Source of the DNA: Acidimicrobiales bacterium
GTDB lineage: Bacteria; Actinomycetota; Acidimicrobiia; Acidimicrobiales; SZUA-35
Reading direction: 5' to 3'
Length of the DNA stretch: 64,000 bases
Assembly (NCBI GenBank): GCA_024638815.1
Contig: JAHEJM010000011.1
Span: forward strand, 1 to 64,000
Below, piece by piece: positions 3,300-8,613 of the stretch. The stretch's first letter is position 1; each line of letters starts with the position of its first letter. The position numbers and the translations under genes are program-made. The notes under the pieces are model-generated. The model was given only the letters and a program-made list of their open reading frames with translations, ran no database searches and was not told where the DNA came from.

Positions 3300-4283
3300 G
3301 TGGGAGCCGGTGACGAGAAACCATTGACCATCACCGGGTTGACCTGGGCCGACATCAATCCCCGATTGAGACTCCGACATCTCGACGAAGCGGCATCACG
3401 GCTCGTCCCGGCCGTCGGTTTCGGCCTCGCCTACCGGGCCGATTCCGGTGCCGAGCGGTGGTGCATAGGCCGGCCGGCATCGAGCGATCCGGCCGACAGT
3501 GGTGACCCCACCGATTGCCTGAACCGGGCCAAGTCCACCGAGTACAACCCGAACTCCCGGTTTTGCGTGTCGTGCGCAGTGGACGAGGCCATGGCGGCCT
3601 CCAGCCTCCACCACGCCCACACTCGAGACCAGGACGACCTCGATCCGACGATTCGAGACCACCTGGCCCGGCCCAGTGTGCTGTACCTCGCCGGATTCCG
3701 GGACGGTTCGATCAAGGTCGGGACCAGCACGGCCCACCGCATCGATGTCCGACTGGCCGAGCAGGGGGCATGGTCGGCCAGGCTGGTCGGTGGTGCGGCC
3801 AACGGCATCATCGTTCGTCACCTGGAAGACGATGTCACGACCGAATTGCAGATCCCCCAATCGGTGGCGGTGTCGCGGAAGCGGTCGGGACTGGCCCGAC
3901 CGGTCGCCGATGACCATCTGGATCGACTTCTCGATGAGGCACTCAACTCGGTTCGATCCCTTGATTCCATCACCAGGGAGACCGCGGGCCACGGCTTTCA
4001 TCTCGAGGTCCACGTCGACGGTCGGCTCTTGCCCCAGTCCTGGCGTAATCCAGGATTCGACGAGGCGCTGTGGCGCGACCGGCCCCTCTACCCCTACCCG
4101 GCGCCGCTGGACGACGGGGCTCATGACGTGACCATCATCGGCCTGTGCGGTCGGGTTGCCGCCATCACCCGGCCCGACTCCGACGACCGGTTCCTGGCCG
4201 ATGTCGGCCGGTGGTACGGCATCGAACTCCATCCCGGCCACGTCGAGCCGGCGGCTATCACCGTCCAGGGCGCCCTGTTCTAG
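3300..4283 (+). CDS. DUF2797 family protein
   Basis: A 327-residue soluble protein starting at GTG. The centre carries the DUF2797 pattern: YLAGFRDGSIKVGTST, a conserved Arg, then RLAEQGAW (about residues 125-160). Upstream is a Cys pair (CVSC) and a His cluster (LHHAH), consistent with a metal-binding N-terminal part. The family has no established function that I know of. The C-terminal 100 residues look like a compact beta-rich domain. It is divergent from the reductase gene, with only 77 nt between the starts. Confidence 0.7.
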   Translation: MGAGDEKPLTITGLTWADINPRLRLRHLDEAASRLVPAVGFGLAYRADSGAERWCIGRPASSDPADSGDPTDCLNRAKSTEYNPNSRFCVSCAVDEAMAASSLHHAHTRDQDDLDPTIRDHLARPSVLYLAGFRDGSIKVGTSTAHRIDVRLAEQGAWSARLVGGAANGIIVRHLEDDVTTELQIPQSVAVSRKRSGLARPVADDHLDRLLDEALNSVRSLDSITRETAGHGFHLEVHVDGRLLPQSWRNPGFDEALWRDRPLYPYPAPLDDGAHDVTIIGLCGRVAAITRPDSDDRFLADVGRWYGIELHPGHVEPAAITVQGALF

Positions 4284-4365
4284 CCCACTCCGATGATCCC
4301 GTCCCCATGGAACTGGGCGCCGCCGGTGGTCCGTTTTGTGTCGACGACCCCCATATGCTGCGTGC

Positions 4366-5337
4366 ATGAAGCTGACGAGATCACTATTTGCACTCCTGGC
4401 CGCGCTGGCCCTGCTGGTCGCAGCCTGCGGCGACGGCGATGACGAGGAAACCGATGCCGGCTCCGACACCGAGGAGGCAGCCGACACCGAGGACACGGCG
4501 CCCGAGGATGATGGCGACGCCGACGAGACCCAATCCGACGACGATGCCGACACCGCTGACGGTGCGACCGATGACGGGGCCGATGGCGCAGGGGCCTCAT
4601 GTGTCACCGGCTTGACCAAGGTCGAGGGCACGTTGACCGTGGCCACCGGCGAGCCGGTCTTCCCGCCGTGGATGATCGACGACGACCCGAGCAACGGTGA
4701 GGGCTTCGAGAGCGCCGTGGTCTACGCCCTGGCCGAACAATTGGGCATCGCCAACGTGGAATGGGTCCGCACCGGATTCGACGAGGCCGTCGCCCCGGGC
4801 GAGAAGGACTACGACTTCAACATCCAGCAGTATTCGATCACCGAGGCCCGTGACGAGGTCGTGGACTTCTCCGACGGTTACTACCAGGTCGAGCAGGCCA
4901 TCATCGGTGCCGCCGACAGCCCGGCCGCGGTCGCCACCTCGCTGGCCGAGCTCAAGGAACTGCGACTCGGCGCCGCCGTGGGTACCACCAGCCTGGCCTA
5001 CATCGACGATGTGATCCAACCCGGCGATGACGCCGCGGTCTATGACGACAATGCGGCGGCCAAGGCCGCCTTCGACGCCGGCCAGGTCGACGCCATCGTC
5101 TTCGATCTGCCCACCGCCTACTACATCACCGGAGTGGAGATTCCCGAGGCCTCCATCATCGGTGTGTTGCCTCGAAGCGGAAGTCCCGAGGAGCTGGGCA
5201 TGCTGTTCGAGGAAGGCAGCGAACTGGTCCCGTGTATCAACGAGGCGTTGGCCGAGTTGGTGGCCGACGGCACCATCGAGGAGCTCGAGGACACCTGGCT
5301 CAATCAGGGCGGCGAAATCCCGTCACTGAACGAGTGA
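4366..5337 (+). CDS. Amino-acid ABC transporter substrate-binding lipoprotein
   Basis: A 323-residue family-3 solute-binding protein (polar amino acids). The signal peptide ends in the lipobox LVAAC (Cys21). A strongly acidic, low-complexity tether (about 25-78) leads into the two-lobed binding domain: LTVATGEPVFPPW at its start, then FNIQQYSITEAR and VDFSDGYYQ, and a late EGSELVPCINEAL segment. The ATG giving MKLTRS is preferred to one 30 nt upstream because it opens a clean signal peptide. The permease and ATPase genes follow in the same direction. Ligand is not determinable, but Glu/Gln/Arg/His-type ligands are usual in the family. Confidence 0.88.
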   Translation: MKLTRSLFALLAALALLVAACGDGDDEETDAGSDTEEAADTEDTAPEDDGDADETQSDDDADTADGATDDGADGAGASCVTGLTKVEGTLTVATGEPVFPPWMIDDDPSNGEGFESAVVYALAEQLGIANVEWVRTGFDEAVAPGEKDYDFNIQQYSITEARDEVVDFSDGYYQVEQAIIGAADSPAAVATSLAELKELRLGAAVGTTSLAYIDDVIQPGDDAAVYDDNAAAKAAFDAGQVDAIVFDLPTAYYITGVEIPEASIIGVLPRSGSPEELGMLFEEGSELVPCINEALAELVADGTIEELEDTWLNQGGEIPSLNE

Positions 5338-5424
5338 CCGCCGTGCGAACTCGAGCCGGGGGAAGGGGACGAGGAGGGGCAGAAGCTCGAGATAGGTCGG
5401 GATAGGTGAGGTAGGGACGCTCTC

Positions 5425-6249
5425 GTGCGGGAACGACTGGCCCGGACATTCGATGAGGAGGGGGCAAAGGCGGCGCTGCTGGCCGCAGTGTCGACCGTCG
5501 TCGTGTTCGGACTGCTGTGGTGGGCCGTCACCCGCAGCCCGTCGTGGCCCGCTGTGCGCAACCAGTTCTTCAGCGGGGACGACTTCGCCGCATCCTGGCC
5601 CCGGGTGGTCAAAGGCTTCTGGCTCAATGTCAGGTTGTTCCTCATCTCCATGTTGACCATTCCGGTCGCCGCCCTGTTCGTGGCCCTGATGCGTAGCTTC
5701 CGCGGCCCCGGGTTCTTCCCCCTCCGGCTCCTGGCTGTGATCTACACCGATCTGTTCCGGGGTATCCCACTGTTCCTCCTGATCGTGCTGATGGGCTTCG
5801 GCATGCCGGCGCTGCAGATCCGAGGGTTGCCGTCTTCGGCCACATTCTGGGCCGTTACCGCCCTGACCCTGTCCTACGCCGCCTACACGGCCGAGATCTA
5901 TCGCTCCGGCATCGATGCCGTTCCCGAGTCCCAGCGGGCCTCGGCCCGGGCCCTGGGCCTGACCCAGTGGCAGTCGATGCGGTTCGCCATCCTTCCTCAG
6001 GCCGTTCGCAACGTCGTCCCGGCCCTGATGAACACCGTCGTCAGCCTGCAGAAGGACGTGGCCCTGGTGTCGGTGGTCGGGGTGCGGGATGCCGTCCGCG
6101 AGGCCGAGATCTACACCTCTCGAACCTTCAACTACACCTCGTATGTGGTGGCCACCCTGCTGTTCCTGGCCATCAGCGTGCCCCTGACCCGGTCCGTCGA
6201 CTGGTACACCGAACGGGACCGAGCCCAGCGATCGCAGGCCGTGTCATGA
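5425..6249 (+). CDS. Amino-acid ABC transporter permease
   Basis: A 274-residue inner-membrane permease of the His/Glu/Gln/Arg/opine family, starting at GTG. Hydrophobic segments lie near 20-40, 75-95, 110-135, 145-165 and 245-262. The cytoplasmic EAA loop reads SQRASARALGLTQWQSM, the contact site for the ATPase. An N-terminal soluble stretch of about 60 residues precedes the core permease. It sits 87 nt after the binding-protein gene and 9 nt before the ATPase gene, completing an importer. Confidence 0.88.
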   Translation: MRERLARTFDEEGAKAALLAAVSTVVVFGLLWWAVTRSPSWPAVRNQFFSGDDFAASWPRVVKGFWLNVRLFLISMLTIPVAALFVALMRSFRGPGFFPLRLLAVIYTDLFRGIPLFLLIVLMGFGMPALQIRGLPSSATFWAVTALTLSYAAYTAEIYRSGIDAVPESQRASARALGLTQWQSMRFAILPQAVRNVVPALMNTVVSLQKDVALVSVVGVRDAVREAEIYTSRTFNYTSYVVATLLFLAISVPLTRSVDWYTERDRAQRSQAVS

Positions 6250-6258
6250 GGCGTTGCC

Positions 6259-7023
6259 ATGGCTGACCAGTCCACCGACACGCCGAAGCTGGAGCTGCGA
6301 GATGTGCACAAGTCGTTCGGGGACAAGCCGGTGCTCCAGGGTCTCGACCTGACCGTGAAGGAACATGAGGTGGTGTGCCTGATCGGGCCCAGCGGCTGCG
6401 GCAAGTCGACCATCCTCCGTTGCATCGATCTGCTTGATCCCATCAACGCGGGCTCGATCCTGCTCGACGGCCAGAACATCACCGGACCCAGGGTCAACGC
6501 CAACCAAATCCGCCGCCGCATCGGGATCGTGTTCCAGTCCTTCAACCTGTTCCCCCACATGAATGTCCTGGACAACGTGACCCTGGGACCCCGTCGGGCC
6601 CACGGTACACCCCGGCGGGAGGCCGAGGCCCGGGCGGTCGAGCTGCTGGAGCGGTTCGGCCTCGGCGACAAGGCCGACGCCTACCCCAACCGCATGAGCG
6701 GGGGCCAGAACCAGCGGGCCGCCATCGTCCGCGCCCTCATGGTCGAACCCGAGGTGCTGCTGCTGGACGAAGTCACCTCGGCCCTCGATCCGGAACTGGT
6801 GGGCGAGGTCCTGGGTGTCATCCGGGAGTTGCGGGACGAGGGCCTGACCATGGTGCTGGCCACCCACGAGATGGGGTTCGCCCGGGACGTGGCCAACCAG
6901 GTGGTGTTCCTCCACGAGGGCCGGGTGCTGGAGGCGGCACCGCCGTCGGAGCTGTTCGACCATCCTCGGCACCCCCGTACCCAGCAGTTCCTTCATCGGG
7001 TTACGGAGGCCGGTCGACTGTAG
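6259..7023 (+). CDS. Amino-acid ABC transporter ATP-binding protein (GlnQ type)
   Basis: A 254-residue ATPase of normal family length. Walker A is GPSGCGKST (43-51), the signature is MSGGQNQR (Asn where Gln is usual), Walker B is VLLLDEVTSALD and the switch His lies in LATHEMGFA. It energises the permease encoded immediately upstream. The intact motif set and operon context make the role firm, while ligand specificity remains open. Confidence 0.92.
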   Translation: MADQSTDTPKLELRDVHKSFGDKPVLQGLDLTVKEHEVVCLIGPSGCGKSTILRCIDLLDPINAGSILLDGQNITGPRVNANQIRRRIGIVFQSFNLFPHMNVLDNVTLGPRRAHGTPRREAEARAVELLERFGLGDKADAYPNRMSGGQNQRAAIVRALMVEPEVLLLDEVTSALDPELVGEVLGVIRELRDEGLTMVLATHEMGFARDVANQVVFLHEGRVLEAAPPSELFDHPRHPRTQQFLHRVTEAGRL

Positions 7024-7111
7024 CCGGCAACGAATCGCCCGAACCGGCCCTGGCCGGGTGGGCTGGTGGCCATGGGATGGTTTGCCGCCGTCTGAGCTGT
7101 AGGTTCCAGTC

Positions 7112-8251
7112 ATGCGGCTGATCCCACGCACTCTGGACGTCCCCACCTCCCCCATCGCCGACGCCCATCGGTGGGTGGGGCAGCGGCGCCTCGACCTACG
7201 GTTGCTCGACATGTCCCAGGCCGCCCCGTCGTATCCCACGGCTCCCGTGATCGCCGAGCACATCGCTGCGGTGGCGGCGTCCCCCGACGGTGGCCGCTAC
7301 GCTCCCCCGCCCGGGTTGCCGGTCCTGCTCGAAGCCTTCTCCCGGGATCTCCACCGCTGCTACGGAGCCGACATCGACGGTGGCAGAATCCTGCCCACCG
7401 GGGGCTGCAACCAGGCGTTCTGTGTGGTCACATCCACCCTGACCCGGCCCGGCGACGAGGTCATCCTTCCCGTGCCCTACTACTTCAACCACGACATGTG
7501 GCTGAAGCTCGACGGCATCGTTCCCCGCTACCTGGATCGTCCCGACCCCGAACAGGCTCGGGGCCTGATCGGCCCCCTGACCCGGGCCATCGTGCTGGTG
7601 ACCCCGGGGAATCCGACGGGGGTCACCCTCGAGCCCGACCTGATCGAGCGGTTCTACCAGTTGGCGAGGGACCACGACCTGGCTCTGATCGTCGACGAGA
7701 CCTATCGAAACTTCCGCACCACGGCCGAGCCGGCCCATCGCCTGTTCGATCATGCCGACTGGGACCGCACCCTCGTCAGTCTCCACAGCTTCTCCAAGGA
7801 TCTGGCCATTCCCGGCTATCGGGTCGGAGCGGTTGTCGGCAGTCCCGAACTGAAGCACGAGGCGTTGAAGCTGGTCGACTGTGTACAGATCTGCGCTCCC
7901 CGTATCGGACAGGAGGCGGCCGCCATCGGACTGGACCGCGCCACCGACTGGCGCCGGGACCAGGTCGATCGCATCAACAATGCGCTGGCCCACTTCCAGG
8001 CGGTGATGGCCGACGAACCGGGCGGCTTCCGGCTGGCCAGTGCCGGGGCCTTCTTCGGTTGGGTCCGACACCCCTTCGGCAACACCGCGGTGCTCGACGT
8101 CATCCGCCGCCTGATCGTCGAACAAGCCGTGGTGGCCATTCCCGGCACCGCCTTCACCCCCGACGACCAGGGGTGGATCCGGTTCAGCTACGCCAACCTG
8201 ACCAGCGACGAACTCGATGATTTCGCCCACCGCGTCGGGCGGCTAGGCTGA
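7112..8251 (+). CDS. PLP-dependent class I/II aminotransferase
   Basis: A 379-residue fold-type I aminotransferase. Visible active-site elements are NPTG (167-170), Asp195 in VDETY (pyridine nitrogen contact) and Lys229 in SLHSFSKD, the Schiff-base lysine, followed by PGYRVG. It would move an amino group between an amino acid and a 2-oxoacid in the cytoplasm. It lies 88 nt after the amino-acid transporter ATPase and may process the imported amino acid (inference). The ArsC-like gene starts 5 nt after its stop, so the two are probably co-transcribed and translationally coupled. Confidence 0.85.
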   Translation: MRLIPRTLDVPTSPIADAHRWVGQRRLDLRLLDMSQAAPSYPTAPVIAEHIAAVAASPDGGRYAPPPGLPVLLEAFSRDLHRCYGADIDGGRILPTGGCNQAFCVVTSTLTRPGDEVILPVPYYFNHDMWLKLDGIVPRYLDRPDPEQARGLIGPLTRAIVLVTPGNPTGVTLEPDLIERFYQLARDHDLALIVDETYRNFRTTAEPAHRLFDHADWDRTLVSLHSFSKDLAIPGYRVGAVVGSPELKHEALKLVDCVQICAPRIGQEAAAIGLDRATDWRRDQVDRINNALAHFQAVMADEPGGFRLASAGAFFGWVRHPFGNTAVLDVIRRLIVEQAVVAIPGTAFTPDDQGWIRFSYANLTSDELDDFAHRVGRLG

Positions 8252-8256
8252 GCCGA

Positions 8257-8613
8257 ATGGCGAAGGTAACCATCTATCACAATCCCCATTGAGGCTCGTC
8301 CCGCAACGCCTTGGCGGTCGCCGAGGAGCTGGGAGTCGACTACGACGTCGTGCTGTACATGAAGGAACCACCGGACCGGGACATCTTGACCATGCTGGTC
8401 AAGATGCTGAAGGACCCGGTCGAGGATCTGGTACGCAAGGACTCGAAATTCAAGAAGCTCGAACTGAATCCCGATGACTACGTCGACAATCCCGACGCCG
8501 TCGTCGACATTCTGGCCCAACACAAGGCTTTGCTGCAGCGACCAGTCGTGGTCAAGGGCCGCACGGCCATCATCGGCCGACCCAAGGATCGGGTGGCCGA
8601 CTTCCTGTCCTGA
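8257..8613 (+). CDS. ArsC-family reductase, selenoprotein (TGA-encoded Sec12)
   Basis: Read straight from the ATG, codon 12 is TGA (8290-8292). The frame then stays open to the TGA at 8611-8613, giving 118 residues. The start reads YHNPH-U-GSSRNAL, which lines up with the ArsC active site YHNPACGTSRN, so the TGA replaces the catalytic cysteine. The C-terminal half has LQRPVVVKGRTAIIGRP, the conserved RP-x-x-V region of glutaredoxin-type arsenate reductases. A SECIS-like hairpin follows the TGA. Substrate could be arsenate or another thiol/selenol partner. A nonsense mutation is the alternative, but the exact position, the conserved downstream frame and a second selenoprotein in the window argue against it. 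Confidence 0.87.
8309..8326 (+). promoter_or_regulatory. SECIS-like hairpin of the ArsC-family selenoprotein gene
   Basis: CCTTGGC (8309-8315) pairs with GCCGAGG (8320-8326), 7 bp including one G-U, closing a 4-nt loop GGTC. The loop begins 24 nt after the UGA. Bacterial SECIS elements recognised by SelB lie just downstream of UGA and have a G at the start of a small apical loop, as here. It lies inside the coding region. Confidence 0.65.

Follow-up and report, generated by a model that had tools for sequence, protein, structure and literature searches.

Does the frame at positions 8257-8613 (+ strand) of the window, the 64-kb (64,000-nucleotide) stretch of Acidimicrobiales DNA analyzed here, encode a working selenoprotein in spite of its in-frame TGA? 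The frame begins with ATG at 8257, contains one in-frame TGA, its codon 12 (8290-8292), and, as the preliminary description had claimed, stays open past it to a normal stop, TGA, at 8611-8613, giving a product of 118 aa with U12. The ordinary open reading frame call starts only at TTG 8311, so that the first 18 codons and the active site are lost, just as had been foreseen for an annotation pipeline, and the gene is an example of one cut short by automatic annotation. Our answer is that 8257-8613 very probably encodes a selenoprotein that is functional and belongs to the glutaredoxin-coupled ArsC family, in which we infer insertion of selenocysteine (Sec) at codon 12.

The product matched the glutaredoxin-type ArsC family of Pfam (PF03960) with 53.6 bits over residues 7-116 (gathering cut-off 24) and NCBIfam TIGR00014 with 94.5 bits over residues 4-117, the latter below the curated cut-off of 106.05 with U entered as C. 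The alignment with E. coli R773 ArsC starts at residue 1 and places R773 Cys12 on the TGA, and this alignment, together with the pattern of TGA and Cys codons among homologues, bears out the earlier assignment of UGA 8290-8292 to the position of the ArsC catalytic Cys. The AlphaFold model, built with 40 aligned sequences, had a pLDDT of 94.8; the closest PDB structures identified with Foldseek were ArsC proteins (TM ~0.8), 1i9d among them, and U12 is found where helix 1 of the ArsC fold begins. H8, U12, R60, R95, and R108 were invariant among 22 aligned homologues, with His8, Arg60, Arg95, and Arg108 equivalent to R773 His8, Arg60, Arg94, and Arg107, and the list of residues required in R773 ArsC includes arginines and His8 (PMC5155266). 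The protein shares the fold, His8, position 12, and 3 arginines (R773 60, 94, and 107) with the glutaredoxin-dependent R773 enzyme but differs from it in having Sec rather than Cys, in its ~36% identity (structure match), in the lack of an ars operon, and in the absence of any other Cys, with 1 U and zero Cys among its 118 residues. The motif around U12 is UGSS, of the UxxS type. Foldseek also returned ArsC-like proteins of the Spx and YfgD type with the same fold (6gho, 1z3e), but the Sec-ArsC protein scored well below the cut-offs of these families. Spx is an RNA-polymerase-binding regulator with a CxxC motif.

Among 61 related genomes searched, each of the 12 that belong to the genus had TGA at codon 12; the 11 congeners searched all carried it in this position, with protein identities of 76-81%. 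A scan of public genomes yielded 80 retained loci, and these likewise all had TGA, nearly all of them in MAGs labelled Acidimicrobiia (or Actinomycetota) or Verrucomicrobiota, and the UxxS form of ArsC is now tied to definite lineages. Among 143 distinct genes, codon 12 was TGA in 116 and TGC or TGT in 27, with nothing else at this position. Relatives thus do have Cys in this column, as the preliminary description had proposed to check, while the codon is TGA and not TGC/TGT in the congeners too. Each of the checks proposed there favoured the Sec reading, and none of the three observations listed as refuting it was made. Viral contigs carried Cys ArsC only and no Sec form. Verrucomicrobiota genes (L100-L148, from Akkermansiaceae, Roseibacillus, and relatives) showed ~69-75% identity to the Sec-ArsC protein encoded in the window and the same SECIS letters.

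A SECIS-like hairpin had been claimed 3' of the TGA, and within the suggested stretch 8290-8340 a hairpin fitting the bacterial SECIS (bSECIS) model lies at 8309-8326 (+), with a 7-bp stem (CCUUGGC/GCCGAGG) and the loop GGUC (8316-8319). The published model calls for a loop of 3-9 nt, a stem of 4-16 bp, and a G within the first 2 loop positions, with the loop 16-37 nt after the UGA and a minimum free energy of at most -7.5 (PMC13188914). The hairpin agrees with the model in every term: its 4-nt loop opens with GG and starts 23 nt after the UGA, its stem has 7 bp, and its 18 nt fold with an energy of -10.7 kcal/mol (z -3.4). When 48 nt of the region were folded, the result was no better than shuffles (z -0.7), so the support comes from the 18-nt hairpin, covariation, and codon constraint; an Rfam scan of the 64-kb window at gathering cut-offs gave no match. 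The bSECIS model was fitted by 116 of 146 Sec genes versus 3 of 33 Cys controls; of 438 stretches taken from other parts of the Sec genes, 10 fitted it. About one-fifth of the Sec homologues failed under strict application of the model, most of them members of subclades whose hairpins differ, and 2 other subclades have a different hairpin at the same site (CAAUGC-CGUGC-GCAUUG and GCAGCAC-UGGAC-GUGCUGC).

Across 80 distinct sequences, 99.3% of the stem cells were paired, which exceeded all 500 shuffles (maximum 96.4%) and all slid versions. Compensatory stem changes were found at several pairs, for example at G21-C30, to A-U (13), and at U19-A32, to C-G (5) or G-C (3). At codons 18, 20, 21, and 23, the same codon was used in 0.92, 0.98, 0.96, and 0.86 of comparable pairs of Sec genes, versus 0.48, 0.76, 0.46, and 0.62 in the Cys relatives and roughly 0.2-0.6 at most other codons of the Sec genes. 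The CGGUCG form occupies the hairpin site in 94 of 116 Sec genes, and the SECIS is nearly letter-for-letter the same in 2 phyla.

We searched the host genome (4.7 Mb, 91% complete, with the arsC window on contig C162) for the selenocysteine machinery and identified selA, selB, selC, and selD, all 4 of the genes whose presence had been named as a check and whose absence would have spoken against Sec. SelA (447 aa, 393.8-394.8 bits) and SelB (575 aa, 266.7 bits) are encoded end to end on contig C112, selA first, both above their curated cut-offs, and SelB has its C-terminal SECIS-binding winged helix (SelB-wing_3, 55.8 bits). The tRNA-Sec on C199 scored 66.5 bits against a gathering cut-off of 47, and ARAGORN agreed, with anticodon tca. 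The selD gene on C190 (351.6 bits) has a Sec TGA codon of its own (HGAGUACK). In this gene (L065, G000:C190:21053-21988), the N-terminal Sec codon is followed by a hairpin, AGCUCAG/CUGAGCU, whose loop, CCCUU, is without G, unlike the published SECIS model.

In a comparison across 296 genomes of the class, in which related species are not independent, SelA was identified in 37 of 37 Sec-ArsC genomes versus 33 of 63 genomes with a stop-free ArsC (p = 4e-8). In one genome, G078, SelA is missing and the ArsC is a Cys form that branches from within Sec sequences, and the congener G109 has both the Sec form and SelA; the G078 gene is a Sec-to-Cys reversion coinciding with selA loss. The 2 genomes form a natural Sec/Cys pair within one genus, including loss of the Sec machinery.

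The TGA is neither a pseudogene lesion nor a sequencing error, since it is conserved, the SECIS is constrained, and the Cys reversion parallels selA loss. A base-calling error (TGC/TGT to TGA), a frameshift, or a pseudogene, which would be expected to look like this TGA in a short metagenome-assembled gene, was rejected as of negligible probability, because the same TGA occurs in more than 100 independent genomes from many projects, the congeners included, with strongly constrained downstream residues and a conserved SECIS. That UGA might be read as Trp or Cys, through a reassigned code or general read-through, would also account for a frame open across the TGA, but it is scarcely credible given that arsC itself and the preceding gene both end in TGA, that the genome holds a complete Sec pathway with tRNA-Sec, and that the homologous residue is always Cys and never Trp.

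The automatic call at TTG 8311 raises a third reading, in which translation starts only there and gives a product without the active-site loop. We considered this, like reassignment of the code, and rejected it as highly improbable: strand 1 and the catalytic residue would be missing, codons 1-11 are conserved as protein across relatives, and a -10-like element lies 7 nt before the ATG, here and in most related genes. This probable -10 element, TAGGCT (8244-8249, +), was recognized by consensus match, and its position suggests a leaderless arsC mRNA. Of 122 Acidimicrobiia Sec-arsC genes, 67 have a TANNNT box 5-8 nt ahead of the start codon, as do 27 of the 33 Cys relatives, and the distances peak sharply at 6-7 nt. 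The Acidimicrobiia arsC genes with this box, Sec and Cys alike, usually have no Shine-Dalgarno sequence. Their mRNAs are probably leaderless, in which case just 33 nt precede the Sec codon.

The Sec genes of Verrucomicrobiota formed one group (99/93 support) within those of Acidimicrobiia, and this nesting points to transfer of Sec-arsC between the 2 phyla. A second Sec-ArsC clade, with the motif HNPGU, has Cys relatives of its own. This clade (L213-L226) mostly fails the strict bSECIS test and may use a different class of signal. Both kinds of Sec-ArsC occur in 4 genomes (G239, G222, G261, and G295); genes of the HNPHUHAS and HNPGUGKS types (L223, L225, L226, and L224 with L175) are separated by ~2-10 kb when on the same contig. 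For the changes between Sec and Cys, a second tree was made with codons 12-25 left out, because residues imposed by the hairpin could otherwise cluster the Sec sequences. The fewest changes on this tree numbered 7, of which at least 3 are forced by well-supported branches, although the small number of columns leaves the precise tally of gains and losses uncertain.

ArsC selenoproteins have precedents. Arsenate reductase selenoproteins with UxxS were reported in the 2005 Sargasso Sea survey (14 sequences; PMC1088965) and again in the 2008 GOS survey (77 sequences; PMC2398784), and reviews of 2022 and 2026 include UxxS proteins of COG1393/TIGR00014 in their lists (PMC9312934, PMC13188914), with the functions of such families described as largely uncharacterised (PMC13188914). 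The preliminary description had said that such proteins appear in metagenomic surveys and are uncharacterised, which stands; its impression of novelty was overstated, ArsC selenoproteins having been documented since 2005. Our literature search, for which subscription journals were mostly out of reach, found no paper on selenoproteins of Acidimicrobiia, and no biochemical test of any ArsC selenoprotein came up in the literature searched.

The gene described here belongs to the known UxxS group "Arsenate reductase (ArsC) 1", with which it shares the Pfam family, the U position, UxxS, a SECIS directly downstream, and Cys homologues. To the survey sequences, our analysis adds named lineages (Acidimicrobiia and Verrucomicrobiota), a complete Sec machinery alongside the gene in its genome, constraint on the SECIS at the level of codons, a Cys reversion placed on a tree, and the lack of arsenite pumps in most carriers. 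The arsenate reductase-like selenoprotein NF041106 (compare GOS "Arsenate reductase 2", UxxC) also belongs to the ArsC superfamily and has its Sec in the N-terminal redox site, but it has UxxC with a second Cys, whereas ours has UxxS and no Cys; NF041106 was not among the NCBIfam matches of the Sec-ArsC protein. ArsC selenoproteins have figured in lists for 20 years, and the lineages, the natural pair, and the conserved SECIS now make the contribution of selenium to an ArsC enzyme directly testable.

In the mechanism that we propose, SelA and SelD would charge tRNA-Sec (anticodon UCA), and SelB would bind the hairpin at 8309-8326 through its C-terminal winged helix and deliver tRNA-Sec at UGA12. 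Sec would thereby be placed where ArsC has its nucleophilic Cys12, an insertion that we infer from the machinery and the signal found. Because His8 and the active-site arginines (60, 95, and 108) are kept, the enzyme probably carries out oxyanion chemistry of the ArsC type with a selenolate: that of U12 would react as the nucleophile with a bound oxyanion, which in ArsC is arsenate, and a Sec-oxyanion adduct would form. As the protein has no second Cys, resolution of this adduct would have to rely on a thiol from another molecule, presumably with a glutaredoxin or mycoredoxin. The genome encodes a mycoredoxin-type glutaredoxin (80.5 bits) and an MshA-like protein (382.5 bits), which make mycothiol a candidate thiol donor, both matches lying below their cut-offs (89.5 and 462.5, respectively).

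Arsenate reduction is normally worthwhile only with arsenite export. The host genome encodes an Acr3 (395 bits) with no adjoining ArsC, and within the genus 2 of 12 genomes have Acr3 and none has ArsB above cut-off, so that 10 are without both. Among the 61 relatives, all counts being from draft genomes, Acr3 was identified in 6 of 36 Sec-ArsC genomes versus 4 of 25 others (p = 1), ArsB in none of the 36, and neither pump in 30 of the 36. With 30 of 36 carriers lacking Acr3 and ArsB, arsenate is a likely but unproven physiological substrate of Sec-ArsC, its role being weakly supported by the genomic evidence, and the missing exporters in most carriers fit a non-arsenate substrate.

An alternative to arsenate reduction is that of a real selenoprotein whose task is not arsenate detoxification, with the same selenolate and arginine pocket acting on another oxyanion or a mixed disulfide. 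We regard it as quite possible, if somewhat less probable than not. It would agree with the presence of Sec-ArsC in 12 of 12 genomes of the genus against Acr3 in 2 and ArsB in 0, with the 30 of 36 carriers without a pump (a count that covers Acr3 and ArsB, other exporters being ArsP, ArsJ, and aquaglyceroporins, alongside ArsM), with the lack of conserved ars neighbours, and with the host Acr3 gene standing apart from any ArsC; against it, the arginines and His8 of R773 arsenate chemistry are invariant (PMC5155266). A fuller version, which we hold to be rather unlikely, would make Sec-ArsC a housekeeping selenoenzyme of Acidimicrobiia that spread to Verrucomicrobiota and acts on another oxyanion or thiol substrate, its ALAVAE run being shaped by the RNA hairpin and not by protein function. 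If true, a non-arsenate substrate would explain the genus-wide presence despite the mostly missing arsenite pumps.

Around the ArsC-family selenoprotein gene, no ars operon was found, and no neighbourhood is conserved, the best family recurring in only 13 of 80 loci. An open reading frame at 3300-4283 (+), for which NCBIfam gave no match, encodes 327 aa, and its product is rich in Cys towards the N terminus (CIG...CLN...FCVSC). Genes for an amino-acid ABC transporter (binding protein, permease, and ATPase) and then an aminotransferase occupy 4336-8251 (+), just upstream of arsC. The latter, a PRK07550-type aminotransferase at 7112-8251 (+) (NCBIfam NF005732, 418.5 bits, cut-off 366), is a neighbour outside the proposed mechanism, and antisense readings suggest that an aminotransferase also lies 5' of arsC in some congeners (L020, L027).
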